Under the pieces are notes generated by a model. It worked only from the letters and a program-made list of their open reading frames with translations, did not search any database and was not told the origin of the DNA. From a virus: DNA of 21,489 bases. This document shows, piece after piece, positions 2,599 through 17,818 of the stretch. The position numbers and the translations under genes are program-made. Position 1 is the first letter of the stretch, and the number at the start of each line of letters is the position of its first letter. The stretch is taken from positions 1 to 21,489 of IMG/VR virus record IMGVR_UViG_3300031758_000671. One strand, written 5' to 3'.

Positions 2599-2642
2599 TT
2601 GAAAACGTGGAGGGAGCGTAAAACCTCCCTCCACAATTTCAA
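2599..2642 (+). terminator. Hairpin after sheath gene, possible terminator
   Basis: A perfect 10-bp inverted repeat, GTGGAGGGAG (2607-2616) and CTCCCTCCAC (2625-2634), encloses an 8-base loop. An outer 6-bp arm, TTGAAA (2599-2604) with TTTCAA (2637-2642), is separated from it by a 2-by-2 internal loop. It starts just after the sheath stop codon. No T-run follows, so it may be a weak terminator, or an mRNA 3'-end stabiliser or processing site between the sheath and tube messages. Confidence 0.6.
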
Positions 2643-2651
2643 AATATTACA

Positions 2652-2659
2652 TATTTATA
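2652..2659 (+). promoter_or_regulatory. Putative late promoter octamer TATTTATA before tail tube gene
   Basis: TATTTATA, flanked by A and G, ends 26 bases before the ATG at 2686. The same octamer recurs at nearly the same distance before other unit-opening genes. The spacing leaves room for a start site and a short leader carrying the GGAG at 2675-2678. Promoter function is inferred from recurrence and position. Confidence 0.5.
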
Positions 2660-2685
2660 GTTAGAAATCCTTTCGGAGATTATAC

Positions 2686-3174
2686 ATGGCAAATCTAGTA
2701 ACTGAACAAGAGCTGTTCTTCACAGCATTTGAACCAAAGATGAAGAATCGTTTCATCCTATACATGGATGGAATTCCTTCATATATCGTCAAAAAGGTTG
2801 CTCGTCCTACATTAACACAAGAAGCAAAGCCACTTGATCATATCAATGTTCAAAGATATGTAAAGGGCAAAAGTAAGTGGGGTACCATGCAGATGACACT
2901 ATATGATCCAATCGTTCCTTCTGGTGCACAAGCAGTGATGGAATGGGTTCGTCTTCACCATGAATCAGTAACTGGCCGTGATGGTTACCTTGAGTTCTAT
3001 AAAAAGGATTTAACTCTCAACGTTCTTGGACCAGTAGGTGATAAGGTAGAAGAATGGATCATTAAAGGAGCACAAATTACAGAAGTTAATTTTGCTGAAA
3101 TGGATTGGGGAGCAGATGAACAAGTAGAATTTACCGTAACAATCCAACCAGATTACTGCGTACTCAACTACTAA
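2686..3174 (+). CDS. Tail tube protein, gp19-like
   Basis: Subunit of the inner tail tube through which DNA passes, polymerised inside the sheath. The product has 162 residues against 163 for T4 gp19. It has the family layout: a short variable N-terminus, then KNRFILYMDGIPSYIVKKVARP (residues 20-41, the first strand and loop), a central part with WGTMQMTLYDPI, and a C-terminal beta region containing GAQITEVNFAEMDWG followed by a VEFTVTIQPDY strand. The ATG at 2686 has a GGAG ribosome site 7 bases upstream and a putative promoter octamer at 2652. It is followed by a strong intrinsic terminator, so it looks like a monocistronic, highly expressed late gene. Four of its five arginines are CGT, unlike the fibre genes downstream. 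In T4 the portal gene 20 comes next; here fibre genes do. Confidence 0.92.
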   Translation: MANLVTEQELFFTAFEPKMKNRFILYMDGIPSYIVKKVARPTLTQEAKPLDHINVQRYVKGKSKWGTMQMTLYDPIVPSGAQAVMEWVRLHHESVTGRDGYLEFYKKDLTLNVLGPVGDKVEEWIIKGAQITEVNFAEMDWGADEQVEFTVTIQPDYCVLNY

Positions 3175-3192
3175 TATTATATTAGTTGTATT

Positions 3193-3225
3193 AAAACTCC
3201 CGCATTAACCTGCGGGAGTTTTTTT
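3193..3225 (+). terminator. Intrinsic terminator after tail tube gene
   Basis: AAAACTCCCGCA (3193-3204) pairs perfectly with TGCGGGAGTTTT (3211-3222) around the 6-base loop TTAACC, and the T-run continues to 3225. It lies 18 bases after the tube stop codon. This is a textbook rho-independent terminator. Confidence 0.93.
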
Positions 3226-3247
3226 ATATTAATAACATAACTTTTGA

Positions 3248-3255
3248 TATTTATA
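3248..3255 (+). promoter_or_regulatory. Putative late promoter octamer TATTTATA before 3281 gene
   Basis: A second exact TATTTATA, flanked by A and C, ends 25 bases before the ATG at 3281 and lies just downstream of the 3193-3225 terminator. A new transcript would be expected to begin between a terminator and the next gene. Confidence 0.5.
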
Positions 3256-3280
3256 CTAGAGTCCTTGTAACGAGAAATAT

Positions 3281-3634
3281 ATGGCAGAATTTACAGATTT
3301 TCAATTTGGCCAAGGTGAAACGTTTCGGTTTGCTGCCACAATTATTAGCGATGACGGAATTACGGCATTCAATATAACAGATTATACATTTATTGGTCAA
3401 GTAAGAGAAAATTATACAACGGAAGAAATTGCAGCTACATTAAATATTACAAAATATTTACCGTATACGTCTGGTAGTATTATGGTGGAATTAACACCAA
3501 CGCAAACAATGAATCTCGGTTCAAGAAAATACGTGTACGATGTAAATATGACTAGCGGATCCGTTGCACCAATAACACGAAGAATATTAGAAGGTACGTT
3601 GACCGTCCGTCCTACTGCTACGAGAAATGATTGA
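3281..3634 (+). CDS. Small virion structural protein with BppU-N-like domain
   Basis: A 117-residue protein that looks like one compact beta domain. It begins MAEFTDFQFGQGETFRFA, continues with a predicted strand and loop (ITDYTFIGQVREN), a GSIMVELTPTQT segment, then RKYVYDVNMTSGS and a final RRILEGTLTVRPTATR. This order (GQ.R segment, Gly-Ser-Ile plus LT, YVYDV, then EG..V.P) matches small proteins of T4-like cyanophages and, more remotely, the N-terminal domain of phage baseplate upper protein BppU. A role as a linker joining fibres to the baseplate is plausible but inferred. Its ribosome site is weak (CGAG at 3271-3274). The stop codon overlaps the next start as TGATG, so the two proteins are probably made together. 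Confidence 0.6.
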   Translation: MAEFTDFQFGQGETFRFAATIISDDGITAFNITDYTFIGQVRENYTTEEIAATLNITKYLPYTSGSIMVELTPTQTMNLGSRKYVYDVNMTSGSVAPITRRILEGTLTVRPTATRND

Positions 3635-4686
3635 TGAGTGGTTCACTTAATCTAGGAATACCAAATATAACGGTTGTTGTCAGAGAAAATACTGACACAA
3701 ATAAAATTGCATTAGCACTTCCTGATGTAAGTGTCAATGTTCAGCAGGGAAATAACTATACTGTAGAAATACAACCACCGGATTTGGTAGTATATAGAAC
3801 AGGCTCGTTACCTGCAATTGCTATATCTGCATATTCTGCTTCATATGTACAAACAGCAGACACAGCAAACACTGCCTCATATGTACAAACAGCACAATCT
3901 ACAATCAGTGCTTCATACGCATTAAAAGCAACTACATCAAGTTTTGCAACAAGAGCAGTTACATCATCACTTGCGTTAAATTCTAATACAGCAAATACTG
4001 CGTCATATGCATTATTTGCATTAAGTGTGGCGGCAAGTGCTTCTTCGGTATATACTAATTTAAGTGCATCAAATGATTTATTTGTTGGTAATAATCTAAC
4101 GGTAGGAACTTCGGCAACTATCCCGTCCATCACGGGTTCCGTAACAGAAGCAATAACTTCGTCATATGCAATAACGGCTTCGTATGTAAGTGGAGCTATC
4201 GTTGGATGGAATGAGGTTATTAATAAACCGACAGGAATTGTGTCAAGTTCGGTGCAAACGGTAGAGTATATCAACAATCAGATAATAACTCCATCAAGTG
4301 TAACCGCATCAATTCAGTCAACGCAAATTCAAGTAAAATCAGATACATCAAATGTGTATCTAAGTTCGTCGGTAGTCACCGGAGTATATGACGAAACCAG
4401 AGTAATTGATCCACCAATATCAGTACAGAGCTTTTCAGGTGTATCAATTGAATATACCGCTCAGAGAACATCGGGAATTCGGTCTGGATTCATCATAGGA
4501 TCATGGAGCGGAAGTACTACGACATATACCGACGTTTCTAACACAGATATAGGAAGTACTGAAGATTTATCGTTTAATCTTATTAGAATAGGAGATAATA
4601 TAAGATTGCGAGCATTAAGTATAGGATCCGGAACTGGAACTTGGAGTATTCAATTCTTATTTAAACTGTTTCCTAACCTATTATAA
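3634..4686 (+). CDS. Fibre-like structural protein with ASY repeats
   Basis: A 350-residue protein. I place the start at the ATG at 3634, whose TGATG overlap with the previous stop indicates translational coupling; the in-frame TTG one codon earlier is unlikely. Residues 1-60 form a non-repetitive N-terminus rich in beta-prone residues. Residues of about 65-190 are low-complexity shaft repeats of the type TASYVQTA and TASYAL. An INKPTGIVSSSVQ unit follows (196-208), a motif used in the larger fibres downstream. Residues of about 265-350 form a globular C-terminal domain (WSG, YTDVSNTDIGS, NIRLRA, GTWSIQ) that closely resembles the C-terminus of the next gene product. Probably a short fibre or fibre adaptor working with the 3281 protein. 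The exact role is unknown. Confidence 0.75.
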   Translation: MSGSLNLGIPNITVVVRENTDTNKIALALPDVSVNVQQGNNYTVEIQPPDLVVYRTGSLPAIAISAYSASYVQTADTANTASYVQTAQSTISASYALKATTSSFATRAVTSSLALNSNTANTASYALFALSVAASASSVYTNLSASNDLFVGNNLTVGTSATIPSITGSVTEAITSSYAITASYVSGAIVGWNEVINKPTGIVSSSVQTVEYINNQIITPSSVTASIQSTQIQVKSDTSNVYLSSSVVTGVYDETRVIDPPISVQSFSGVSIEYTAQRTSGIRSGFIIGSWSGSTTTYTDVSNTDIGSTEDLSFNLIRIGDNIRLRALSIGSGTGTWSIQFLFKLFPNLL

Positions 4687-4694
4687 TATTTATA
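4687..4694 (+). promoter_or_regulatory. Putative late promoter octamer TATTTATA before 4720 gene
   Basis: An exact TATTTATA, flanked by A and G, starts at the base after the upstream stop codon (TAA at 4684-4686) and ends 25 bases before the ATG at 4720. A GGAG ribosome site lies at 4708-4711. Confidence 0.5.
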
Positions 4695-4719
4695 GATATA
4701 TTCTTTTGGAGATTCTGCT

Positions 4720-6879
4720 ATGGCGAATGAATTTATAGCTAGAAAAGGTTTAATAGTATTAGCCAATGGTATAGTAGCCACTGGGTCTACTAGTGTCAAT
4801 GGTGATATTACTGCTTCCGGCGATGTCGTAGCAGTGAATTTCCGAGGTAGTGGTCAGTACCTCACAAATATAGCAGCAGACAGTGTACAATTTGCAAACG
4901 TTTTAAATAAACCAACATTAGTTTCATCATCAACGCAGTTTAATACGATCACGGATCCATTCACCGGATCATTTACGGGTTCATTTACTGGAGATGGTAG
5001 TCAACTAACAGGCATTGCTACCACACTATCGGTCACGGGTTCTACATCAGGAACTGATTCGGTAAACCTTAAAACGGAAGGATTGGTATTCAGTGGATCC
5101 AGTAATGTTACGGCAACTGTAACAAATAATACTGTTACGATTGGAGTATCGGGTCTTGTTTCACAATCAAGTCAAATATCATATTCGGGATTATCAAACA
5201 TCCCAGACGGCATAGTATCCAGTTCTACACAATTCACCAATCTTGCCGCACCATTTACAGGATCATTTACAGGGTCATTTAAGGGAGACGGTAGTCAATT
5301 AACCGGCGTTGCTGCAACAAACGTAGAATATGCAAATGTTCTTAATAAACCAGCATTAGTATCCGCATCAAGTCAAATTGATCACGATTTAACAACCAAC
5401 TTCGTAGCAAACGAACACATTGATCACAGTTCCGTATCAATTAGTGCCGGTAATGGTTTAAGTGGTGGTGGCGATATTACAACTACCCGTACATTATCTC
5501 TTGATACGGGATCAACCCATTTTACAAACGGTGTAAAAACCAAACTTAATACAGAAGGTGTCTTCAGTAGTTCGGTACAAGTTGATGTACGTAACACAAC
5601 AGGAATTGCTACTATTGCAACAACTGGGTCTAATACCTTTACTGGTGTACAAACTATATCCAACACGACAAATAGTACTGTATTTAATAATGGTGCATTA
5701 ATTGTCGCAGGTGGAGTAGGAATTGCTAAAGACGTAAATATTTCGGGTAGTTTAACCGTCACGGGATTACTCACCGCAGTATCAACGTCGGTACAATACG
5801 TAACCTCATCGCAATTAAATGTAGCAGATAATAAGATTGTTGTTAATACGAATGATTTAGTACGATTCGGTGGATTGTCGGTAATTGACTCGGGATCCTC
5901 TTCTCCGACCACTGCATCCATATACTGGGATAGTTTAGCGCATCACTTCATTTACGAAAATCTTAGTGGATCGGCATACAATAGCGCAGTAATTATAGCG
6001 GGTCCAAAAAATACGGGTGCTTTAGGAAACGAAGCAGAATTAATAACAGGTCGTATTCCAGTAGCATCAGGCGGTGATCATATTGATACGGGTCTTGCCT
6101 CAAGTTCCATGTATGTGGAATTTCCTTCACGACGGACACACGTTGAAGCGGGATTATATGTTACTGGAGCAATTACGTCTTCGGTGGGATTCTCTGGGGA
6201 TGGTAGTAATCTTACCGGTGTTGTTAGTACATTAAGTGTCACAGGATCAGAAAGTGGTACCGGTACAATTAATCTTAAAACACAAGGATTAATTGTCAGT
6301 GGAACCAACGGCGTTGTAGCAACCGCCAATGGACAAACTCTCACCATCAGTGGTAGTAATGCAACAACAACAACAAAGGGTGTTGCATCATTTAACAGTA
6401 CAAACTTTACGGTTACTGGTGGTGAAGTTACATCCAACAATATTACCATCAATGGCGGAACCGTTACACTTGGTGGTACACGTAACATTACTCTTGCACA
6501 AATTACAACACAAGGTGCAACTACCACTGATGCAGTCACGTTAAGTGGTGGAGCAACCATTGGAAGTGCATTTCAAACGTCTAGTACTTATGTTGCTGCC
6601 GGTCCCACAACAAATGAAGTTGTATTAAGTTTGGCCACCGGAAGTTTTGATGCAGCACATTTTGATTATGTTCTCAAGAGTGGAGCAAATCTCCGTACAG
6701 GAACGGTCATGTCAATATGGACGGGTGGTTCAATAGAATTTACCGATACATCAACAAACGATATCGGAAATACTAGAAATGCAGATTTCACTGTAGATAC
6801 CAACTCTGGAAATGTGCGATTAAAGTTTACTGTTACCTCCGGCACGTGGACGATTAAAACATCAACGAAGTTACTCTAA
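4720..6879 (+). CDS. Tail fibre protein with MANEFIARKGLI N-terminus
   Basis: A 719-residue fibre protein, presumably a trimer. Residues 1-12 are the signature MANEFIARKGLI, identical in the next gene and probably the attachment peptide. The shaft has NKP/SSS-Q units (63-72, 209-219) and repeated SGSFTGSF segments. A module of about 52 residues beginning GDGSQLTGI occurs twice (91-142 and 493-545). Residues 246-262 (GLSGGGDITTTRTLSL) and 320-345 (GALIVAGGVGIAKDVNISG) are motifs common in cyanophage-type fibres. A less repetitive region (368-464) may be globular. Residues of about 648-719 form a C-terminal beta domain shared with the preceding gene product. No S74 self-cleaving chaperone domain is seen. 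GGAG at 4708-4711 sets the start, and a strong terminator follows the stop codon. Confidence 0.85.
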   Translation: MANEFIARKGLIVLANGIVATGSTSVNGDITASGDVVAVNFRGSGQYLTNIAADSVQFANVLNKPTLVSSSTQFNTITDPFTGSFTGSFTGDGSQLTGIATTLSVTGSTSGTDSVNLKTEGLVFSGSSNVTATVTNNTVTIGVSGLVSQSSQISYSGLSNIPDGIVSSSTQFTNLAAPFTGSFTGSFKGDGSQLTGVAATNVEYANVLNKPALVSASSQIDHDLTTNFVANEHIDHSSVSISAGNGLSGGGDITTTRTLSLDTGSTHFTNGVKTKLNTEGVFSSSVQVDVRNTTGIATIATTGSNTFTGVQTISNTTNSTVFNNGALIVAGGVGIAKDVNISGSLTVTGLLTAVSTSVQYVTSSQLNVADNKIVVNTNDLVRFGGLSVIDSGSSSPTTASIYWDSLAHHFIYENLSGSAYNSAVIIAGPKNTGALGNEAELITGRIPVASGGDHIDTGLASSSMYVEFPSRRTHVEAGLYVTGAITSSVGFSGDGSNLTGVVSTLSVTGSESGTGTINLKTQGLIVSGTNGVVATANGQTLTISGSNATTTTKGVASFNSTNFTVTGGEVTSNNITINGGTVTLGGTRNITLAQITTQGATTTDAVTLSGGATIGSAFQTSSTYVAAGPTTNEVVLSLATGSFDAAHFDYVLKSGANLRTGTVMSIWTGGSIEFTDTSTNDIGNTRNADFTVDTNSGNVRLKFTVTSGTWTIKTSTKLL

Positions 6880-6894
6880 GAACTACTTACATAT

Positions 6895-6931
6895 AAGGGG
6901 TGGGTACTAATCCTACCCACCCCTTTTTTTT
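6895..6931 (+). terminator. Intrinsic terminator after 4720 fibre gene
   Basis: A 12-bp perfect stem, AAGGGGTGGGTA (6895-6906) with TACCCACCCCTT (6914-6925), a 7-base loop and a run of eight T (6924-6931). It lies 15 bases after the fibre stop codon. No TATTTATA octamer is found between it and the next start at 6961. Confidence 0.95.
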
Positions 6932-6960
6932 AACCTTTGGAAATGTGAAAAAGGGATAAT

Positions 6961-8676
6961 ATGGCGAATGAATTTATTGCCCGTAAAGGGTTAATATCAA
7001 GCGGTAGTATTGAAGTATCTGGATCTGTTACCGCAAGTGGATTTTTTGGCACAGCATCATTCGCGTCCCTGGCAGTAACAGCCTCCTATATATCAGGCGG
7101 AATAGTAATAATTGGATTGCCTACTGATGGGGCATATGGCGGGGCAGCTGGAAACGTATCAGGCATTGGCTCTGGCGATAAAGCAGAAGATGCGTTTGAT
7201 AAAATTGAAACTATTTTGGGAAGACTAGCTCCAGCAAAGCCTGCTAATTTAAGTACCCGTACATTAACGACGAACGCAACCACATATACAGCATTTACTG
7301 CAAGTGGTGCAACTCCGTCATCATTTAGTAATATTACGGTAACCGCACGTCCTACAGCAAGTTGGACATTTGCCGCGGCAACCAGTGGATCTGGAACTAC
7401 CTTATCATTTGATGCTGATTCGGGAACGTTACAAGCAGAAGTTGATGGAGTGGTTGCACCTCTATCACAAGATGTCTTTACAACTGCATCAGATGTTGGT
7501 ACGTTTGGTGATTTAATTGTGACCGCCGATTTAGACCCATATAATGGAACGTTTGGTCAGCAAGGATTCTGGAAAGGATTTCTTGCATCTGTCGCAGCAA
7601 CCAGAAGTTTAGCACTTGGACCACACACCTACCGATTATTACATTCCACCACAGGTAACACGCCAGTATTCACGTGGTATTTGGATAACCCATCAACCCC
7701 AGTAGTTACCGTAGTGACGGGTTCTTCAACGGGCGGATCTACCCGATTTGTGTCTGGCGTTCCTACGTTGGCAACGGGAGAAACTGTACTCATTGCCACA
7801 ACTGCGTCTAATGCAGTTAGTCAATTTTATAATGGTACACGAATATTTTCTGCGGTAGGAAATAATTCGGTAGCACCGTCAGTAAACGCAACGCTACCAT
7901 CAGTACCTCCGACATCTGCTTCTCTGGTTAGTTCGTCTATCACATTAACCGTTGCAACAAACGTATATACGGTTGCCAGTACTTATACGGTTACTGCATA
8001 TAACTCCGCGGGAACTACGGCAACGGCAACGTGGACTCCTACATTACCAATTAGAGTAGATACAATTAGTAATGAAACGGCACGGTGTCGTTCGGGTATT
8101 GGTTGGTATCCAAATATTGCCACTGATATTTCTGGGGCAGGAAATTTATGGACTGCATCGGTAAACTTGACGGGTAGTAGAGAATTACAAATGAGTAATA
8201 ATGTCTATCATTATCCAAGTGGTAGTAGTTATGTATCCAATTACCCATTAGCCGGACCCGATTATAGAGGATTGGCGGGGGACACTACAGCATCATTCCC
8301 AGGAGAAGCAGTTCGTTGGGTTACATTTAGTGGTTCAGTAACTGCCGCATCAAACGTAAGTGTGGCGTTTACGGGAACAAATGCTGCATTTACTGGAGTG
8401 ATAACTTCTGGATCAATGCGATTATATGTACGAGTGTCCGGATCAATACCTACTAATGGGTGGATTGATGGTTCAACTGCATATCCTGGAACCGGAACCC
8501 CCACCAACAATGGAGATCCTGCATTAGTGGTGGGAAGTAGTACAGCAACTACCAAAGTTGTTACTTTCGGCGGCACTCCACGAACTGGAAGAGTATTTAT
8601 TAGAGTGGGTATTCCATCATCATCATTGGCTGGTAGTACTAGATCGTTCTCTGGCGTAACTATTACGCAAGTATAG
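6961..8676 (+). CDS. Fibre or decoration protein with MANEFIARKGLI N-terminus
   Basis: A 571-residue protein. Residues 1-12 repeat the MANEFIARKGLI signature of the previous gene, followed by a short shaft with GTASFASLAVTASYISGGI (30-48). Residues of about 54-100 (TDGAYG, then GDKAEDAFDKIETILGRLAP) form a helical segment found in other phage fibre-type proteins, where it introduces large beta domains. Residues of about 100-360 look like one or more beta-sandwich domains, with a TYTVTAYNSAGTTATATW strand pair (341-358) resembling an Ig-like fold. Residues of about 360-571 form a second globular region ending in MRLYVRVSG, NGWIDGS and GRVFIRVG. Function is probably host binding or fibre decoration. 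AAGGGA at 6951-6956 is the ribosome site. A terminator sits upstream without a recognisable promoter motif. Confidence 0.75.
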   Translation: MANEFIARKGLISSGSIEVSGSVTASGFFGTASFASLAVTASYISGGIVIIGLPTDGAYGGAAGNVSGIGSGDKAEDAFDKIETILGRLAPAKPANLSTRTLTTNATTYTAFTASGATPSSFSNITVTARPTASWTFAAATSGSGTTLSFDADSGTLQAEVDGVVAPLSQDVFTTASDVGTFGDLIVTADLDPYNGTFGQQGFWKGFLASVAATRSLALGPHTYRLLHSTTGNTPVFTWYLDNPSTPVVTVVTGSSTGGSTRFVSGVPTLATGETVLIATTASNAVSQFYNGTRIFSAVGNNSVAPSVNATLPSVPPTSASLVSSSITLTVATNVYTVASTYTVTAYNSAGTTATATWTPTLPIRVDTISNETARCRSGIGWYPNIATDISGAGNLWTASVNLTGSRELQMSNNVYHYPSGSSYVSNYPLAGPDYRGLAGDTTASFPGEAVRWVTFSGSVTAASNVSVAFTGTNAAFTGVITSGSMRLYVRVSGSIPTNGWIDGSTAYPGTGTPTNNGDPALVVGSSTATTKVVTFGGTPRTGRVFIRVGIPSSSLAGSTRSFSGVTITQV

Positions 8677-8684
8677 GATTATAT

Positions 8685-11600
8685 ATGGCACTAACTACTG
8701 CACAACAAGCATTACTACTATTTAAAAAATGGTTAGGATTAGGACAAACGACTTCTTCACGTGAGTTTTTTAATGAAACTTCGTTTCCTGGTCGTTCTGC
8801 GGTATATACGAATCAAATATGGACTCAAGCCGATCTTATACCTAGTACTGCACCTGCGTTAAGTAATGGACAAACGAGTGGCGTCGTCCAGTATTGGCAA
8901 AATGCTCCTCTTGGTGCTGTTCCTGGTACTACCAACGCATTTACGAGTTCTTTATTAATTGATGCAATTCCATTCAACTATGGCGATGGGTCGTCTTATA
9001 ATTATGTCATTCGTAATAATATTGGAGGAACTATTGCATTCGGTGAAGGTGATTGGATTGTAGATACGGATGCAGGTCTGGTAACGTTTTATAGTACGGT
9101 CCCAGGAAACATGCCACCAAATATTTCGTTTTATAAATATGTTGGCGCAAAAGGATTTTCTTCTGGATCAGTACCTTTAACGGGATCTTTGTTTGGAACC
9201 GCAAGTTGGGCAAGTAATGTAATATCTGCGTCATTTGCAACTACTGCATCTGCTGCTACATCTATTACGTTCATTCCAAGTACTGCATCTTTTGCGACCA
9301 CCTCATCGTTTGCAGTAACGGCAAGTTATGCACTAAATTCTACGGAACTTCCACCAAATCTCGTGAGTAGTTCCACGCAAATAGATTACACGCAGATCCA
9401 AAATAAACCCACCACGATTGAAACCGCGTCCTACGTAGAATATAATAATGTCGCAAATAAACCAGCACTGGTGTCTAGTTCACAACAAATTAATACGGGA
9501 TCATTTAGCGGATCATTTATTGGAACTGCATCAATAGCAGATAAGGTAACGGGCGGAACCTCCCGATATATTCCAATGTGGACGGGCTCGGGGGCAAACG
9601 AACTCACGTCCAGTATCATATATCAAACCACTAAAGGTGTTTTTATTGGATATGATACTGCGCCGCATTTTCATTCCGCAGTAGGTGAAACTCTTGCCGT
9701 TCACTCGGGCGAGACGGGTGTTAAAAATGTTATCTATGCTCACGGTTCATCTGATGATTCGTATCGTGTAAATATTCGGAATATTAGTAGTGGAGTATCT
9801 GCGTCCACCAACTTCATTGCTACTGCTGACGCAGGTACTGATGACGGTGGATATATTCGCATGGGTATCAATTCTAGCACATATTCGCGAACTGACGAAA
9901 TTGGTGACCCATTAGACGCATATCTATTCACCACAGGAAGTGACTTACTAATTGGAAATCTATCTCCAGACAAACGTATTATTTTATTCACGGGTCCTGG
10001 AGATGCCGATAATAATGCTCGGGTGTTTATTGACCCGTCTGGTAGTGTGGGAATCAATACATCAGAAGTGATAGCAGGTGCTCCAGATGCACTACGTGTA
10101 AAAGCAGTACCATCTGTTGCAACCTTTAACGTTATTACGGCACTTGGTCTAACAGACGATTACGCACAAATTAATATGAAAAATACGGGGACCGGTAACT
10201 CCGTATCCAGTGACATCGTAGCAACTGCCAATAATGGTGACGAAAATACGAACTTCGTCAACATGGGAATTAATGGTGAAACGTATACTGGAACCATTGG
10301 TGGACCGAATGACTCGTATGTGTATTCTACGGGTGGGCATTTACATTTAGGTGCAATTGACCCTGGCGAAGAAATCATGTTGTTCGTTGGTGGCGAAGAT
10401 GTGATGATGACCACCAAATTAACATTACGAGATAACAATCAACACGAACTATCCGGTTCATTAAATGTCACTGGTAGTTTAAATGTACTACAAAATGTGG
10501 TAAATAATTTAACGGCTTCATTTGCAATCACGGCAAGTTATGTTGAAGGAGCGGCAAGTGATTGGAGTACATTAGCAAATAAACCAGACGGAATAGTTTC
10601 TAGTTCTACACAAGTTCAAAATTACAATATATTTACTACTACCGGATCCAATGCATTTAAAGCATCACAAACTATTACGGGTAGTTTAATTGTCACCGAC
10701 ACGATTACCGCGCAACAATTTAATATTGAATTTATATCATCATCGGTAATATATGAAAGTGGCTCTACAAAGTTTGGTGATAGTACAGATGACACACATC
10801 AATTTACGGGATCACTAAGTGTTCTAGGTACAATTAGTGGAAGTTTGGTATTACCTATAGGAACCGTTAGTAGTTCGGCACAAGTAGATTATAATGGAAT
10901 ACAAAACAAACCCACAACAATTGCAACTGCCTCTTATGTAGAATACAATAATGTTGTAAACAAACCGACGTTAATCTCCAGTTCTCTACAAATCAATACG
11001 GGATCGTTTAGTGGTTCTATAACGACTGCATCGTTTGCTACTACTGCGAGTTTTTCACAAACATCTTCGTTTACTGTAAGTTCGTCATTTGCAACCACGG
11101 CTTCGGCAGCAACTAGTATTACGTTTACACCGTCAACCGCATCGTTTGCACAAAACGCACAATTATTAAACAATACATCATCGGCAGTATTTGCCACAAC
11201 GGGATCCAACTCCTTTAATGGAACCCAGACAATTACTGGATCATTACTACTAACTACCGACATCGTAGTCTTTAGTGGATCGTTTACTACGTCAGGATCA
11301 TTTGCAATATCGGGTAGTTTGGGTGTCACGAATGGAATCACGGGGTCATTATTTGGAACGAGTAGCTGGGCAAATAATGTAATATCTAGTTCGTTTGCGA
11401 CAACAGCCTCTGCAGCTACGTCCATTACCTTTACACCGGCTTCAGCATCATTCAGTACGACGGCATCATTTGCAACAAGAGCAAATAGTTTAAATGGTGG
11501 TACCGTAAACTACGTTCCACTCTGGAGTAGTGCAACCGCACAAAGTTCCAGTAATCTATTTCAAGCTGGAAGTAATATTGGTATTGGTACAACAGTACCG

Positions 11601-12116
11601 CTTAGTCATTTACATGTATTATCTACGGCATCACGTGCATTTAGAATTGAACGGGGAACTAATAATGTTGGTATAGAAGTTTCTCCTGGCACTTCAACTG
11701 GTTGGGGATTTTTTGATTATAATAGAGTTGCCTATGATATATGGATGCAAGCAGGTAATGTTGGTATTGGAACAACAACAACGATTAATGCAACTCTTCA
11801 AGTCCAAGGTAACGTATCAGCATCATCTTATACAAGTTCACTAGATAATGCAGTAGGATTTTTTGGAACTAGTAGTTGGGCAGTAAGAACAACAACTGCC
11901 TCATTTGCCACTACCGCTTCTGCTGCCACGTCTATCACGTTTACTCCAACTAGTGCATCATTCGCTACCACTGCATCTGCGGCAACTAGTATTACGTTTA
12001 CGCCAACTACAGCATCTTTCGCAACAACAGCGTCAGCGGCAACCTCCATCACCTTTACTCCCGCAACATCATCCTATGCATTAAGTGCCAGTTTCATTGA
12101 CGGAGGATTCTACTAA
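8685..12116 (+). CDS. Large tail fibre protein with docking domain and shaft repeats
   Basis: The longest protein here, 1143 residues. Residues 1-158 are a non-repetitive N-terminal domain (KKWLGLGQTTSSREFF, NQIWTQADLIPSTAP, DAIPFNYGDGSSYNYV, FYKYVGAKG) of a type seen at the N-terminus of other environmental phage fibres, probably the tail-docking end. The rest is shaft: ASFATTASAATSITFTP units, five NKP units, and two copies of a module of about 100 residues (357-457 and 484-578) with the pattern MGIN, DAYLF or DSYVY, and L.IG or L.LG. GIGTT turns occur near 955-1025. It ends in three tandem 19-residue repeats and IDGGFY, with no chaperone domain. AGGA (8675-8678) overlaps the upstream stop codon and is the ribosome site. 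The stop overlaps the next start as TAATG, which suggests the LamG protein caps or decorates this fibre. Confidence 0.85.
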   Translation: MALTTAQQALLLFKKWLGLGQTTSSREFFNETSFPGRSAVYTNQIWTQADLIPSTAPALSNGQTSGVVQYWQNAPLGAVPGTTNAFTSSLLIDAIPFNYGDGSSYNYVIRNNIGGTIAFGEGDWIVDTDAGLVTFYSTVPGNMPPNISFYKYVGAKGFSSGSVPLTGSLFGTASWASNVISASFATTASAATSITFIPSTASFATTSSFAVTASYALNSTELPPNLVSSSTQIDYTQIQNKPTTIETASYVEYNNVANKPALVSSSQQINTGSFSGSFIGTASIADKVTGGTSRYIPMWTGSGANELTSSIIYQTTKGVFIGYDTAPHFHSAVGETLAVHSGETGVKNVIYAHGSSDDSYRVNIRNISSGVSASTNFIATADAGTDDGGYIRMGINSSTYSRTDEIGDPLDAYLFTTGSDLLIGNLSPDKRIILFTGPGDADNNARVFIDPSGSVGINTSEVIAGAPDALRVKAVPSVATFNVITALGLTDDYAQINMKNTGTGNSVSSDIVATANNGDENTNFVNMGINGETYTGTIGGPNDSYVYSTGGHLHLGAIDPGEEIMLFVGGEDVMMTTKLTLRDNNQHELSGSLNVTGSLNVLQNVVNNLTASFAITASYVEGAASDWSTLANKPDGIVSSSTQVQNYNIFTTTGSNAFKASQTITGSLIVTDTITAQQFNIEFISSSVIYESGSTKFGDSTDDTHQFTGSLSVLGTISGSLVLPIGTVSSSAQVDYNGIQNKPTTIATASYVEYNNVVNKPTLISSSLQINTGSFSGSITTASFATTASFSQTSSFTVSSSFATTASAATSITFTPSTASFAQNAQLLNNTSSAVFATTGSNSFNGTQTITGSLLLTTDIVVFSGSFTTSGSFAISGSLGVTNGITGSLFGTSSWANNVISSSFATTASAATSITFTPASASFSTTASFATRANSLNGGTVNYVPLWSSATAQSSSNLFQAGSNIGIGTTVPLSHLHVLSTASRAFRIERGTNNVGIEVSPGTSTGWGFFDYNRVAYDIWMQAGNVGIGTTTTINATLQVQGNVSASSYTSSLDNAVGFFGTSSWAVRTTTASFATTASAATSITFTPTSASFATTASAATSITFTPTTASFATTASAATSITFTPATSSYALSASFIDGGFY
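11901..12071 (+). repeat. Three tandem 57-bp repeats encoding SFATTASAATSITFTP units
   Basis: Copies lie at 11901-11957, 11958-12014 and 12015-12071. Each encodes SFATTASAATSITFTP plus three variable residues. The peptide is nearly constant, but the codons are not: copy 1 to copy 2 shows 11 synonymous codon changes and one amino-acid change in 19 codons, and copy 2 to copy 3 shows 12 synonymous and two non-synonymous. The same unit occurs once or twice elsewhere in this gene and four times in the 12969 gene. Confidence 0.9.
12102..12107 (+). promoter_or_regulatory. Ribosome binding site for LamG gene, inside upstream CDS
   Basis: GGAGGA lies inside the last codons of the 8685 gene, 8 bases before the ATG at 12116. 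It fixes that ATG as the start and, with the TAATG overlap, supports coupled translation of fibre and lectin. Confidence 0.7.
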
Positions 12117-12919
12117 TGCCGTGGTCATTTACGAGTAGTGGAAATCCTGGCGGATTTTCTGGGGCATCATCGGGTAATCCTGGGGGTATGGTTGCTGTTC
12201 CACAAATAACTACGGCGGGATTGGTTATTAATTTAGACGCAGGAAATAGAGCATCATACCCCGGTAGTGGAACTACATGGACAGACCTGACAGGAAATTC
12301 AAGAAATGCAACATTAATCAACGGACCAACGTTTAACAGTGCAAACGGTGGAAGTATACTGTTTACATCAGCAAGTTCACATTATGCGGATATAGCAAAT
12401 ACTGCCAATTCTACATTTGATTTTGCAAATACAACATTTACGGTGGATGTGTGGTTTAATTTCACATCGTTGACTTTTAATAGAATGCTTGTTACTAAAG
12501 CATTAGACGTTGGGGGTTGGGCGGTGTATGGAGGTCTTAATGGACAAATATTCGTGGGGGCAAAAAATGGAACTACGGGAGGATATCCATTAAATTGGTT
12601 TTCTGGAAATTCTTTATTGAATAGTAACACGTGGTATAACTTAACGTCAATTATTACTACAAATACCACAACGGTAGCATCAAATACTGCAAAAGTATAT
12701 TTAAATGGTGTGGAAATACCTGGAACCAACTCACCTACCACGGCTGAAGCATATGGAGGAGAACCAGCAGTTCCTATAAAAATTGGAAGACGATCACCTG
12801 CGGCATCACCGTTTTATATGGATGGAAGAATTGCGGCAGTAAAAATATATAATCGTGGTTTAACGGCAGGTGAAGTTTTTAAAAATTATATTTCGTTACG
12901 TGACCGTTTTGGAATATAA
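12116..12919 (+). CDS. LamG/concanavalin A-like lectin domain protein
   Basis: A 267-residue protein consisting of a Gly/Ser-rich N-terminal tail (1-28, two SSGNPGG units) and one laminin-G / concanavalin A-like jelly-roll domain (about 32-267). Family motifs in order: GLVINLDAGNRASYPGSG (35-52), TWTDLTGNSRNATLINGPTF (54-73), FTVDVWFNF, WYNLT, KVYLNGVEI, and the C-terminal MDGRIAAVKIYNRGLTAGEV then NY and RFGI. Such domains bind carbohydrates and are frequent in phage fibre-associated proteins, so a receptor-binding role on the cell surface is likely. The ATG overlaps the previous stop as TAATG and has a strong GGAGGA site. The N-terminal tail probably attaches it to a partner, perhaps the 8685 fibre. 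The fold is secure; its ligand is unknown. Confidence 0.87.
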   Translation: MPWSFTSSGNPGGFSGASSGNPGGMVAVPQITTAGLVINLDAGNRASYPGSGTTWTDLTGNSRNATLINGPTFNSANGGSILFTSASSHYADIANTANSTFDFANTTFTVDVWFNFTSLTFNRMLVTKALDVGGWAVYGGLNGQIFVGAKNGTTGGYPLNWFSGNSLLNSNTWYNLTSIITTNTTTVASNTAKVYLNGVEIPGTNSPTTAEAYGGEPAVPIKIGRRSPAASPFYMDGRIAAVKIYNRGLTAGEVFKNYISLRDRFGI

Positions 12920-12934
12920 CCAATCATCACAAAA

Positions 12935-12942
12935 TAGTTATA
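12935..12942 (+). promoter_or_regulatory. Degenerate late promoter octamer TAGTTATA before 12969 gene
   Basis: TAGTTATA matches TATTTATA at seven of eight positions and ends 26 bases before the ATG at 12969, the same spacing as the exact copies. It lies in a 49-base gap with an AAGAGAG ribosome site at 12956-12962. Confidence 0.35.
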
Positions 12943-12968
12943 TACAGTTCATATCAAGAGAGTAATAG

Positions 12969-15785
12969 ATGCCAGATACGATACTACACAAACGTAATTT
13001 AACACCAGGAGTTGCCCCCACGACAGAATCCTTGTCGGTGGGAGAACTTGCTATTAACGTTGCGGATCGGAAACTCTATACGAGAAGTGGATCCGCAATT
13101 GTAATATTAAATGACAATACCGGATCGTTTACGGGATCGTTTACTGGAGAATTGATTGGAACTGCGTCCTTTGCGACAACTGCTTCCTATGCACCAACCA
13201 TTTTACCGAATGGATTGTTTAGTAGTTCATTACAAGTAGATTATACTGATATACAAAATAAACCTACCACGATTGAAACTGCTTCATACGTACAATTTAG
13301 CAATATAGCAAACAAACCAACACTGATTTCCAGTTCTACACAATTTACTAATATCACCGAACCATTTACGGGATCGTTCACAGGATCGTTTACGGGTGAG
13401 TTTATTGGAACTGCTTCGTTTACTACATCGGCCTCATATGCACCGACAATATTACCAAGTGGTGTAATCAGTAGTTCCGCACAAGTAACTGCAAGTATTA
13501 ATGGTGCAATTATCACTCCCGCAGAAGTATCTGGTAGTGATATTCATGCACAAACATTAATGGCTCATCGTTGGTTGGAATTATATCCCACTGACATTGC
13601 AATCAGTCCCGATCCTGATTCCGCATATTTCTATATCAGTGGATCTAGTAACGATCTCTGGTATACCCATAAAACCGATTCCACGGTCAACTTTGATTGG
13701 ATTGAAGGCGTATTGGAAACGGGATTAATACATGGTGGAATCAATGGATTTAATGGTAGTGAAGTTCATATTCGGTCAGGCTCGGGTATTATTGTCAACC
13801 ACGGAGCAAATACTGGATCTGCCTCTTCACCAACCGTTACATATGTAAACTGGCCGGTAATCACGGGTAGTATTGATGTCACTCAAGGATTTGTTACCTA
13901 TCTTGCTATTAACGCAAATGGAATTCTGGAAAGTTCCTCTACGAAATTTACCTCACTGGACTATCATGACAAGATTCCATTAGGTGCCGTTGGACATTTC
14001 AATCAACAAGCCATTGCGGCAAAAGGTGAACAAGTCAATACCCAATATAGTCAAACAGCCCAACTCACCGACTTTGCACGTAACTTCGGTCCAATCAAAG
14101 TGGGTGGTTATGGGATCACGGCACAATCGGGATCGTTGAAGTTTACTCGTGCAGCAGGTAACGCATTTATTTACGGGGGATTCTACAGTCAAAATCCCGA
14201 AACCCCGTCAGATTATCAATCTCCCTCCGTTAGTACAGGAAGTCTTGCTTACATCTATCGGTCGGGATCTGCATATACGGTAGATGCAAATAATAACAAT
14301 TTCTATACTGATTTGAAGCCAGGTTGGTATGATAATGGTGGACTTACGACTGCCTCACTTGCGTCCAACGAATGGAGTATTCAACGGGTCTTCATAGAAC
14401 CGGTGACGGGTATTCACTACATTTATTTCGGACAAGCAAAGTATACGTCACTTGCAAATGCAGTTTCCAATATTTTAACGGATCCATTTGCAGAAGGTCC
14501 AGCCACTACACTCTTTACCGTGTTTGTTGGCTATCTGGTGATGAAGGGCGACACCACGAATTTGGCAGATACGGGAAGTAATGATATTATTAGTGCGGGA
14601 TTATTCCGTAATACGTCAGCGGGTAGTGTGGGCGGAGGAGCGGCAGCACAATTGTTGAATGATTTGAGTGATGTGACGGTTACGTCACCATCTAACGGAC
14701 AAGCACTCATTTATAGTTCGGGAAATTGGATTAATGGAACACCAGCAAACGCAACGTCTGCTTCGTATGCAACGTCAGGATCCTATACGGTTACTGCGTC
14801 CTTTGCAACCTCTGCGTCTTATGCACCGACGATCCTTCCTGACGGAATCTTCAGTAGTTCCTTACAAGTTGACTATACACAAATCCAAAACAAACCGACA
14901 ACGATAGAAACTGCATCCTACGTAGAATATGTAAATGTTGCGAACAAACCCGCATTAATATCCAGTTCAGCACAAATTAATGAGTTAACTGGTGTCTCAG
15001 CGTCTTTTGCAACCACTTCATCGGCAGCAACGTCTATTACGTTTATACCAACATCGGCGTCATTTGCAACAACTTCAAGTGCGGCCACGAGTATAACATT
15101 TACACCAGCAACGGCGTCCTTTAGTACGACAAGTTCTTTTGCTACAACTGCAAGTGCTGCTACATCTATCACGTTTACACCAAGTACCGCATCATTTGCT
15201 ACATCTGCCTCATACGCACCCACAATCCTTCCTAGCGGAATCTTTAGTAGTTCCTTACAAGTAGATTATACGCAGATTCAAAATAAGCCTACGACGATAG
15301 AAACTGCGTCTTACGTAGAATATAATAATGTCGCTAATAAACCGGCGTTGGTATCAAGTTCGGGACAAATCTCATATACGGGAATTACCAACGTTCCTTC
15401 GGGAATACTATCCAGTTCAACGCAAATTAATGAGTTAACTGGTGTCTCGGCGTCTTTTGCAACCACGTCATCGTTTGCAACATCTGCGTCATTTGCTACT
15501 ACCGCATCATTCGCAACTTCCGCAAGTTTCGCACCCTACGCGGGATTACGAACCAAAGCAGGAAGTGTTGCAAATACCTCGTTTGCTGGTAATCCAAGAA
15601 AAGCTACAGTCAATTTTGCAACCGCTTTCCCCAACACATCGTACGCAGTCACAGTGACGGGTGAAGATGCACGAAGTTGGACGATTGAAAGTAAGGCAGC
15701 AGGAAGTTTCGTAATCAACGCTAATAGTAATACGAACTTGACAGGAACGACCTATTGGACCGCGATGACATACGGGGAGACATAA
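12969..15785 (+). CDS. Large tail fibre protein with globular middle domain
   Basis: A 938-residue fibre. Residues 1-48 (ILHKRNLTPGVAPTTESL then GELAINVADRKLYTRSG) are an N-terminal motif common in phage fibre proteins. A 55-residue shaft module (ASYAPTILP to SSS.QI) occurs at 72-126 and twice more near the C-terminus. Residues of about 186-555 form a large non-repetitive globular domain (HRWLELYPTD, HFNQQAIAAKGEQVNTQ, WSIQRVFIEPVTG, YFGQAKYTSLANA, VGYLVMKGDTT) resembling domains of other phage fibres, here unnamed. Residues 563-589 (LNDLSDVTVTSPSNGQALIY then WING) are a well-known fibre linker. After more ASFATTSS repeats, residues of about 862-938 form a small C-terminal beta domain (VNFATAFPNTSYAVTVTGED, then SWTIESKAAGSF and YWTAMTYGE), probably the tip. 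No chaperone domain is seen. Confidence 0.85.
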   Translation: MPDTILHKRNLTPGVAPTTESLSVGELAINVADRKLYTRSGSAIVILNDNTGSFTGSFTGELIGTASFATTASYAPTILPNGLFSSSLQVDYTDIQNKPTTIETASYVQFSNIANKPTLISSSTQFTNITEPFTGSFTGSFTGEFIGTASFTTSASYAPTILPSGVISSSAQVTASINGAIITPAEVSGSDIHAQTLMAHRWLELYPTDIAISPDPDSAYFYISGSSNDLWYTHKTDSTVNFDWIEGVLETGLIHGGINGFNGSEVHIRSGSGIIVNHGANTGSASSPTVTYVNWPVITGSIDVTQGFVTYLAINANGILESSSTKFTSLDYHDKIPLGAVGHFNQQAIAAKGEQVNTQYSQTAQLTDFARNFGPIKVGGYGITAQSGSLKFTRAAGNAFIYGGFYSQNPETPSDYQSPSVSTGSLAYIYRSGSAYTVDANNNNFYTDLKPGWYDNGGLTTASLASNEWSIQRVFIEPVTGIHYIYFGQAKYTSLANAVSNILTDPFAEGPATTLFTVFVGYLVMKGDTTNLADTGSNDIISAGLFRNTSAGSVGGGAAAQLLNDLSDVTVTSPSNGQALIYSSGNWINGTPANATSASYATSGSYTVTASFATSASYAPTILPDGIFSSSLQVDYTQIQNKPTTIETASYVEYVNVANKPALISSSAQINELTGVSASFATTSSAATSITFIPTSASFATTSSAATSITFTPATASFSTTSSFATTASAATSITFTPSTASFATSASYAPTILPSGIFSSSLQVDYTQIQNKPTTIETASYVEYNNVANKPALVSSSGQISYTGITNVPSGILSSSTQINELTGVSASFATTSSFATSASFATTASFATSASFAPYAGLRTKAGSVANTSFAGNPRKATVNFATAFPNTSYAVTVTGEDARSWTIESKAAGSFVINANSNTNLTGTTYWTAMTYGET
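13182..13346 (+). repeat. 55-residue shaft module, copy 1 (diverged)
   Basis: Encodes ASYAPTILPNGLFSSS through NKPTTIE and NKPTLISSSTQF. It is the most diverged of three copies in this gene, and a related unit lies in the 8685 gene near residues 222-270. The two copies of NKP in each module give the characteristic fibre-shaft pattern. Confidence 0.8.
14814..14978 (+). repeat. 55-residue shaft module, copy 2
   Basis: Encodes ASYAPTILPDGIFSSS through NKPALISSSAQI. It differs from the copy starting at 15207 by four of 55 residues. The offset between the two copies is 393 bases, and the gap is filled by ASFATTSS and AATSITFTP units. Confidence 0.85.
15207..15371 (+). repeat. 55-residue shaft module, copy 3
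   Basis: Encodes ASYAPTILPSGIFSSS through NKPALVSSSGQI. As after copy 2, a QINELTGVSASFATTSS segment occurs downstream (from about 15422), so the duplication extends beyond the module but is interrupted here by an extra SYTGITNVPSGILSSST unit. Confidence 0.85.
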
Positions 15786-15788
15786 GAT

Positions 15789-16553
15789 ATGGCAGTCAGG
15801 TTTTTACAAGGGGTGAAATTTTCAGGTGGAACAATACGATTTGCTGATCCCGTAGTAGTTCCCGAAGTTCCATTTACGGTGCAAACATTTACTACGACCG
15901 GTGCAGGAAATTGGACCAAGCCGGTAGGAATCACGGAAGTGGTGGTGGAATGTTGGGGTGGTGGTGGTGCAGGTGGTGGATGTACGGTTAATAACGCAGG
16001 TGGCGGCGGTGGTGGAGGAGGAGGATACGCCAAAAAAACTATTTTTTATTCATCACCATCACAAAATATATCGTATTCAATCGGTACTGGCGGAACGGCA
16101 AGCACTGGTGATGGAACTGACGGTGGTGATACTACCTGGAATACTACGGACGTAATTGGTAGAGGTGGACAAGGGGGAATATCTGCGGCTAACGGAGGAA
16201 CCTCTGGTCGGGGTGGCGGCGATATTGACTTTAGTAGACCTGCCAACGTAGGTGACACAACGTATCGTGGTGGTAGAGCTCGTCCTGGTGCAGGTGGAAT
16301 AGGATCTAATTTAAACGGGGCCGGTGGTGGCGGCGCAGGATCAACTGGCGATGGTGGTGATGCTGGTGTTGAGGGTGGATTAGGAACCACGGAAAATGGT
16401 GGAAACGGTGCAAACGGACATGGGGCAGTAAGCTTTACAGGGCTACCTGGTTCTGTATATGGCGGCGGTGGAAGTGGAGCATTTAAAACAGGTGGAGGAA
16501 ATCGTTCTGGTGGCGTTGGAGCACAAGGACTAATTCGTATCAGTTATCGTTAA
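15789..16553 (+). CDS. Glycine-rich adhesin-type tail protein
   Basis: A 254-residue protein with a short N-terminal segment (MAVRFLQGVKFSGGTIRFAD), then FTTTGAGNWTKPVGITEVVVECWGGGGAGGG (34-64), the hallmark entry into phage glycine-rich tail proteins (a T..G...WT.P.G...V.V..WG pattern). From residue 56 to the end glycine dominates: uninterrupted glycine tracts (73-81) and many GGxG clusters separate short variable patches. It closes with AQGLIRISYR, the usual C-terminus of this family. Known relatives include polyglycine-type adhesins such as the gp38 adhesin of phage S16, which sit on fibre tips and contact receptors through variable loops. GGGGAGA (15774-15780) is the ribosome site, overlapping the end of the 12969 gene, whose stop lies 3 bases before this start. 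It may form the tip of that fibre. Confidence 0.82.
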   Translation: MAVRFLQGVKFSGGTIRFADPVVVPEVPFTVQTFTTTGAGNWTKPVGITEVVVECWGGGGAGGGCTVNNAGGGGGGGGGYAKKTIFYSSPSQNISYSIGTGGTASTGDGTDGGDTTWNTTDVIGRGGQGGISAANGGTSGRGGGDIDFSRPANVGDTTYRGGRARPGAGGIGSNLNGAGGGGAGSTGDGGDAGVEGGLGTTENGGNGANGHGAVSFTGLPGSVYGGGGSGAFKTGGGNRSGGVGAQGLIRISYR

Positions 16554-16570
16554 ATGGAGAATATAGATCC

Positions 16571-17764
16571 ATGAATATGATGGTTATTAAACCAGAGGGA
16601 ACTAACTCAATTATTATTACTAATAAATTACGAAGTAATATATTAGGTGCATTCAACAACACCGTGCAAGTAGTTGTAATAGATTCCAACGGAAAAATAT
16701 ATGTTGGTGGATTTTTTACTTCGTACCAAGGCGTTACAGCAAATTATATTATTAGACTCAACGCAGACGGAACCAAAGACACAGCGTTTGATAACTCAAC
16801 AGGGTTTAATGGAGGAGTTTATTCTATTGAGATTGACTCCAACGGAAAAATATATGTTGGTGGAAGTTTTACTAGTTATAAAGGCGTTGCAGCAAACGGT
16901 ATTATCCGACTCAACGCAGATGGAACCAAAGACACAGCGTTTGATAATTCAACAGGGTTTACTATTCCAGCAGATACTGCGTCGGTTTATATCACAAAAA
17001 TTGATTCCAACGGAAAAATATATGTTGGTGGATTTTTTACTTCATACAAAGGAGTTCAAGCAAATTATATTATTAGACTCAACGCAGACGGAACCAAAGA
17101 CACAGCGTTTGATAACTCAACTGGGTTTGACGCGGAAGTAAATTCTATTGAGATTGACTCCAACGGAAAAATATATGTTGGTGGAAATTTTATTTTATAT
17201 AAAGGAGTGGAAGCAAATAGTATAATTCGTCTGAATCCGAATGGAACCAAAGATACGGGGTTTGATAATTCAACAGGGTTTGATGGTTCCGTTTTAAGAT
17301 TAATTTTAAATTCTAGTGGAAAGCTGTATGTTGGTGGAATTTTTGAATTATATAAAGGAGTTCAAGCAAATAGTATCATCAGACTCAATGCAGATGGAAC
17401 CAAAGACACAGCGTTTGATAACTCAACGGCGTTTGGAAATTTAGAACTTGTATATTCTTTGATTCTTGATACTAATGAAAAACTATATGTTGGTGGTAGT
17501 TTTACTACGTATAAAGGAGTTACGGCAAATAATATTATCAGATTAAATGCCGATGGAACGAAAGATACCAATTTTGATAATTCTATAGCGTTTGATAGTA
17601 GTGTTACATCTCTCGCGATTGACTCAAGCGGAAAATTATACGTCGGTGGAACTTTCAGCTCATATAAATCAATCACCGCTGAAAAAATAATTCGGTTAAA
17701 TGCGGATGGTAGTATAGACGCAACATCAATTCAATTACAAAATACTCAAATTGTTACTACTTAA
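16571..17764 (+). CDS. Seven-repeat beta-propeller protein (delta-60/DUF5122-like)
   Basis: A 397-residue protein made almost wholly of seven repeats of 51-56 residues (first six) plus a shorter last one, starting at residues 32, 83, 139, 190, 241, 294 and 345. Each repeat reads roughly V.SI.IDSNGKIYVGG.F..YKGV.AN.IIRLNADGTKDT.FDNSTGF. This is the delta-60 / DUF5122 beta-propeller repeat, and seven copies fit one closed seven-bladed propeller. Residues 1-31 and the C-terminal strand (QLQNTQIVTT) could close the ring. No signal peptide or membrane segment is seen. Placement between adhesin and fibre genes suggests a virion receptor-binding head or fibre cap; that role is inferred. GGAG at 16556-16559 lies 11 bases before the ATG; ATGs at codons 3 and 4 are possible alternatives. 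Arginine codons are mostly AGA. Confidence 0.85.
   Translation: MNMMVIKPEGTNSIIITNKLRSNILGAFNNTVQVVVIDSNGKIYVGGFFTSYQGVTANYIIRLNADGTKDTAFDNSTGFNGGVYSIEIDSNGKIYVGGSFTSYKGVAANGIIRLNADGTKDTAFDNSTGFTIPADTASVYITKIDSNGKIYVGGFFTSYKGVQANYIIRLNADGTKDTAFDNSTGFDAEVNSIEIDSNGKIYVGGNFILYKGVEANSIIRLNPNGTKDTGFDNSTGFDGSVLRLILNSSGKLYVGGIFELYKGVQANSIIRLNADGTKDTAFDNSTAFGNLELVYSLILDTNEKLYVGGSFTTYKGVTANNIIRLNADGTKDTNFDNSIAFDSSVTSLAIDSSGKLYVGGTFSSYKSITAEKIIRLNADGSIDATSIQLQNTQIVTT
16664..17722 (+). repeat. Seven tandem repeats of about 153 bp in propeller gene
   Basis: Copies start at 16664, 16817, 16985, 17138, 17291, 17450 and 17603. The first four are very similar at the DNA level. Copies 1 and 3 share an identical run of about 63 bases covering the AN.IIRLNADGTKDTAFDNS part, and another of 41 bases covering DSNGKIYVGGFFTS. 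Copy 2 carries five extra residues, copy 5 two, and copy 7 lacks the FDNSTGF end. Confidence 0.93.
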
Positions 17765-17810
17765 TATTATTTATGAAATGGTTTTTACACCACAACCTAT
17801 TTTTAGACTC

Positions 17811-17818
17811 TATTTATA
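17811..17818 (+). promoter_or_regulatory. Putative late promoter octamer TATTTATA before 17849 gene
   Basis: An exact TATTTATA, flanked by C and G, ends 30 bases before the ATG at 17849, slightly further than the other copies. It lies in an 84-base gap that also has a 7-of-8 match (TATTTATG) at 17768-17775. The leader carries AAGAGA at 17835-17840. Confidence 0.45.

Follow-up and report, generated by a model that had tools for sequence, protein, structure and literature searches.

The octamer TATTTATA is very probably the late-promoter -10-like element of a viral clade, and the factor that reads it would be a gp55-like sigma, diverged from that of T4 and extended by a C-terminal domain. The element was proposed as a candidate late promoter in a preliminary description of the window, by which we mean the whole 21,489-nucleotide stretch of IMG/VR record IMGVR_UViG_3300031758_000671 that was analysed. 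The four exact octamers and one 7-of-8 copy reported there lie where they were described and at the ATG distances given, and the tightly coupled genes at 8685, 12116, 15789 and 16571 do lack the box. The box copies, hairpins and genes concerned are as follows.

2652..2659, + strand: TATTTATA box, ending 26 nt before the tail tube ATG at 2686; predicted +1 at about 2665
3248..3255, + strand: TATTTATA box, ending 25 nt before the ATG at 3281; predicted +1 at about 3261; terminator directly 5'
4687..4694, + strand: TATTTATA box, ending 25 nt before the ATG at 4720; predicted +1 at about 4700
12935..12942, + strand: TAGTTATA variant box (7/8 match), ending 26 nt before the ATG at 12969
17811..17818, + strand: TATTTATA box, ending 30 nt before the ATG at 17849; predicted +1 at about 17824
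9132..9139, - strand: exact TATTTATA copy within a gene, regarded as a chance copy
2606..2635, unstranded: GC-rich hairpin of 11 pairs, just 5' of the 2652 box
3193..3222, + strand: intrinsic-terminator-like hairpin and T run, just 5' of the 3248 box
6895..6925, + strand: strong terminator-like hairpin, preceding the box-less gene at 6961
249..2597, + strand: tail sheath (PHROG 23, E 1.2e-65); true start at -57, outside the window; no box
2686..3174, + strand: tail tube protein, gp19-like (PHROG 4542, E 1.1e-25)
3281..3634, + strand: protein of 117 aa with weak similarity to L-shaped tail fibre assembly proteins (PHROG 3304, E 1.4e-11)
4720..6879, + strand: repetitive tail-fibre-like protein, unit-opening; no family match
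12969..15785, + strand: repetitive tail-fibre-like protein, unit-opening
17849..19936, + strand: repetitive tail-fibre-like protein, unit-opening; no family match

The raw number of copies in the window is weak evidence, as five exact copies were counted where 2.3 were expected and 4 of 100 shuffles reached five; this is close to chance, and the case therefore rests on position. The variant TAGTTATA is likewise weak as a class, with 3 of its 33 copies falling in the zone before starts across five long relatives and the window. The window also holds a counter-example that the preliminary description overlooked: a unit begins with the gene at 6961, after an 81-nt gap and the strong terminator at 6895-6925, and this gene has no box, its best match carrying two mismatches. 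Among the window proteins themselves, the adjacent fibre genes at 4720-6879 and 6961-8676 share the N-terminus MANEFIARKGL, several proteins contain recurring ASFATTASAATSITF-like repeat units, and the gene at 16571 encodes a DUF5122 beta-propeller with near-identical repeats.

Positional evidence is available from a larger contig of 56,468 bases (G011, IMGVR_UViG_3300032050_000168), which contains the window at 100% identity on its reverse strand and additionally encodes portal, capsid and head-completion genes. In this contig, where 97% of bases are coding, 8 of the 11 TATTTATA copies lie within the 3.1% of DNA that is non-coding (p=1.3e-10), and 10 of the 11 are on the coding strand. Among the 18 genes preceded by a gap of 30 nt or more, 7 have an exact box 15-45 nt upstream, compared to none of the 37 other genes (p=1.6e-4), and when TACTTATA, TATGTATA and TAGTTATA are added, the counts become 11/18 and 0/37. 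Because copies are concentrated in non-coding DNA and before gapped genes in this way, the genome-wide comparison with coding regions that had been suggested as a check comes out in favor of the octamer.

Conservation of the box was assessed at 80 IMG/VR loci encoding a relative of the tail tube gene, 79 of which have readable upstream DNA. In 59 of these 79 relatives, many of them near-duplicates of one another, the exact octamer stands before the tube orthologue, and the sequence and length of the spacer vary. At four loci (L024-L026 and L044) the box is retained despite a longer leader; several tube genes among L063-L081 have no box. In a set consisting of five long relatives (G001-G004 and G008) and the window, TATTTATA was the top-enriched of all octamers upstream of starts, with 52 of its 96 copies in the zone (log10 p -61), a zone rate of 0.54 compared to 0.047 for octamers of equal base composition. 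The same-sense T4 word TATAAATA was not found in the zone in this set (0 vs 52). A chance AT-rich word was considered as the source of the signal and rejected on the basis of the zone enrichment and the gapped-gene counts in G011. Since the reversed control ATATTTAT overlaps the real box within ATATTTATA, it was set aside.

The related words TACTTATA, TATGTATA, TATTTATT, TATTTATG and TATATATA are also enriched in the zone, and box positions 1, 2, 6 and 7 are strict. One subclade (L067, L070, L073 and L078) appears to have shifted from TATTTATA to TACTTATA, which lies upstream of genes in 8/8 copies. Enrichment of the box extends to contigs G007, G031, G032, G036 and G042 as well as to marine loci, and 71 kb of the jumbo relative LR756508 did not show the motif. 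The gaps upstream of major head and sheath genes are small, and these genes have no box. In G007, upstream zones are also enriched for GGGTTCGA, which probably represents the T arms of tRNA genes preceding open reading frames.

The genes that follow the box are predominantly of the late type. Going by transferred annotation, tail tube and head-completion genes have the exact box in front of them, the baseplate hub has a form with one mismatch, and none of the annotated replication genes has an exact box. With late and structural region boundaries drawn from annotation by the analyst, the box in G002 precedes 11 structural-region genes and 1 gene elsewhere, compared to 0 and 6 for sigma-70-type promoters of the form TTGACA-17-TAnnnT (p=4e-4), SSB and PolA being among the six. 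Under the same kind of boundary, 11 of 37 genes in the late region of the cultured Flavobacterium phage immuto have the box before them, among them the terminase gene at 119017 and the tape measure gene at 150801, compared to 2 of 96 genes elsewhere (p=1e-5); the immuto motif TATATTTAGGTATCAAT stands before 16 genes that are not late and before no late gene. Other promoter-like motifs were also observed in these genomes. The 60-77 kb region of immuto (L126) has a second strong one, TTCnTATATTTAGGTATCAATAAT, at about 25 nt from the starts of many small non-late genes, and in G031 and Microcystis phage Mel-JY01 upstream motifs of the TATATTTG type resemble the TAnnTTTG box of Bacteroidota, which is odd for Mel-JY01 given that a cyanobacterial host is recorded for it.

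The box might be read by an alternative or primary sigma factor of the host rather than by a phage sigma, and late genes of Ma-LMM01 have been reported on host sigma-70-like promoters (PMC5780444). We regard this as improbable, as the box has no -35 element and remains constant while the other promoters vary from genome to genome (TTGACA-17-TAnnnT in G001-G004, TTTG...TAnnTTTG in G031 and another motif in immuto). Moreover, host-type promoters precede replication genes in the same genomes, and only two genes have both a host-type promoter and the box.

The form of the element was derived from 47 non-redundant sites, whose logo shows A or C followed by TATTTATA, with no information in the -35 region. 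C hardly occurs 10-12 nt downstream of the first base of the box, which is where T4 promoters start. Between box and start codon lie 21-44 nt, in most cases 23-32 nt, and running the T4 late region through the identical procedure returned TATAAATA as the top word (12/18), with gaps of 14-28 nt. A strong hairpin lies within 75 nt 5' of 10 of the 47 boxes, compared to 1.7% of random stretches, and hairpins precede two of the boxes in the window; the layout is that of a terminator, then the box, then a new unit. In T4 numbering, the octamer would span -13 to -6, which would place the start of transcription about 6 nt past its end, rather than 10 nt as in the preliminary description.

That the octamer is instead an RNA-level leader signal, such as an AU-rich processing site or a translation element, is a reading to which we give very little weight. 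The box is AU-rich and lies in the 5' gap, as such a signal might, but it lies beyond the ribosome-binding-site region and tolerates spacings across the whole observed range. It also follows terminators with little room between for another promoter, it is concentrated on late-type genes, and the clade has a sigma-like gene.

Weaker still is the option, raised in the preliminary description, of an opposite-sense T4-type promoter on the other strand: the reverse complement of the box is exactly TATAAATA, but same-sense TATAAATA is missing from the zone in which TATTTATA abounds, the box lies at a fixed distance, in the sense direction, from the start that follows, T4's own box lies at the same distance in that direction, copies in G011 favor the coding strand, and terminators lie on the upstream side. 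Compared in the same sense, TATTTATA and TATAAATA differ at only 2 of 8 positions (4 and 5, AA to TT), and they are reverse complements because the frame TAT..ATA is palindromic and the central AA has become TT. No inverted function is needed for this relation, and since the strand data speak against it, inversion was rejected.

A gp55 homologue, which the preliminary description had recommended seeking, was found as a divergent gp55-like sigma in relatives within the clade; no such gene is present in the window, in the parent contig G011 or in G001 (164 kb, incomplete). Searches of the relatives with phrog_234 and phrog_12791 yielded a single weak lead, a gp55 profile match in immuto gp118 (phrog_234, E 0.008), and this led to a family with members in immuto, Mel-JY01, G002, G008, the jumbo record LR756508 and at least 579 IMG/VR stretches. 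Three of the genes are located as follows.

L126:28174-28872: gp55-like sigma gene of immuto, annotated "hypothetical protein"
L124:8764-9534: gp55-like sigma gene of Mel-JY01, annotated "hypothetical protein"
L094:13712-14470: gp55-like sigma gene of G002

Alignment of the family with eleven T4-type gp55 proteins using hhalign was co-linear over 110 columns, with P=2e-4 and a modest probability of 45-47%, and phrog_234 matches 4 of 45 family members (best E 7.9e-4). The divergence is such that phrog_234 gave no match at E <= 10 in related IMG/VR contigs carrying the sigma, T4 gp55 gave no match to the family by direct HMMER, a PDB sequence search with the family gave no match, and a generic Sigma70_r2 Pfam search of the relatives returned no sigma above the cut-off. 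Structure provides additional support. An AlphaFold model (pLDDT 77) has a sigma-2 fold, and its top PDB matches are mostly sigma factors, as are its matches among viral models; against T4 gp55 in the open complex 7d7c, the probability is 0.90, with a TM of 0.57 on the target at 4.3 A. Seven IMG/VR contigs encode both the gp55-like sigma and a window-type tail tube.

Family members are about 230-255 aa long and include an extra C-terminal helical domain. In isolation this domain gave no convincing fold match, so a sigma-4 or gp33-like role for it is only a guess. The proteins end in hydrophobic tails (e.g. GSFF, SSLF and SMFFV), in which a clamp-binding motif is only possible judging from the sequences. 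In G002 and G008, the sigma gene is directly followed by a box-preceded 128-aa gene (L094:13282-13668 and L117:5391-5777) homologous to a 131-aa gene of Mel-JY01, which may be a gp33 analogue or the first gene of a baseplate unit.

Given a late-class element on the sense strand and a divergent gp55-like sigma in the clade, the better supported of the two options in the preliminary description is a late sigma with altered specificity. The candidate late promoter described there is thus retained as a sense-strand, late-class element without a -35 partner, and its opposite-sense alternative is dropped. Under the preferred reading, TATTTATA, mostly after A or C, would act in the sense direction as a -10-like element without a -35, and the phage gp55-like sigma on the host RNA polymerase core would read it, with transcription beginning at the predicted site just past the box. 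We infer that the gp55-like sigma of the clade probably does read TATTTATA.

The residues and bases that meet in the T4 complex are consistent with this recognition. In T4 gp55, Y97 stacks with A(-12), N13 and H95 contact A(-9), and T99 bonds to A(-8) (PMC7892883). In the family alignment, which is a remote one, position 97 is Y in 45/45 members, T99 is replaced by S in 44/45 and H95 by F; by the same remote alignment, the new family has Q, E or D in place of N13, which does not vary among the eleven T4-type gp55 proteins. The box in turn retains A(-12) and A(-8), while -10 and -9 are altered from A to T. As 5 of the 11 T4-type gp55 proteins also have F at position 95, the loss of H95 alone is no explanation, and N13 is the better candidate. 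The clade would then be a natural example of joint change in a sigma and its box, with kept contact residues facing kept bases and the lost N13 facing an altered base.

The sigma may also be activated by a sliding clamp. In the clade's replisome, the clamp loader is represented by a clear gp44 (phrog_168, E 5.7e-81) and a gp62-like match. The gp45 profile PF09116 gave no match in the clade, though T4 and Aeh1 score, and a PDB search for the gene near gp44 returned nothing. It is conceivable, if rather unlikely, that the clade uses a one-piece late sigma, in which a gp55-like region is joined to a helical C-terminal domain of its own and to a hydrophobic tail that may bind the clamp, together with the re-specified box TATTTATA, where T4 splits the job between gp55 and gp33. 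Fused gp55-gp33 proteins are functional in vitro in T4 (PMC2988020).

For a large group of distantly T4-like myoviruses of bacteria, most of them uncultivated, these results supply the late promoter together with a probable late sigma, whose gene is now labelled a hypothetical protein in the annotated records of the group. With the box, late operons can also be recognised in phage contigs from metagenomes. In T4, the late promoter is TATAAATA, used with gp55, gp33 and gp45 (PMC2988020, PMC7892883). Like T4, the clade has a single -10-like box without a -35, in the sense direction about 25 nt before late-gene starts, a T4-like replisome with a clamp loader, and a sigma-2 protein of the gp55 type. 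Unlike T4, its box is TATTTATA, with A changed to T at -10 and -9, its sigma carries the additional C-terminal helical domain, and gp45 is not detected by profile. Precedent for a late box altered together with a diverged gp55 is found in Aeromonas phage Aeh1, whose late promoter is CTAAATA (PMC1524935); Aeh1 alters -13/-12, whereas the clade alters -10/-9 and keeps A(-12). Phages CBB and GAP32, with the late motif ATAAATA (PMC5259590), are large myoviruses that similarly have a T4-like late box predicted before structural genes and a gp55-like sigma, in their case with no detectable gp33 or gp45, but their motif keeps the AAA core, unlike TATTTATA. The literature searched contained no report of TATTTATA as a phage promoter. 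Late boxes deviating from that of T4 are already known, and TATTTATA would be a further one, accompanied by a newly recognised sigma family.
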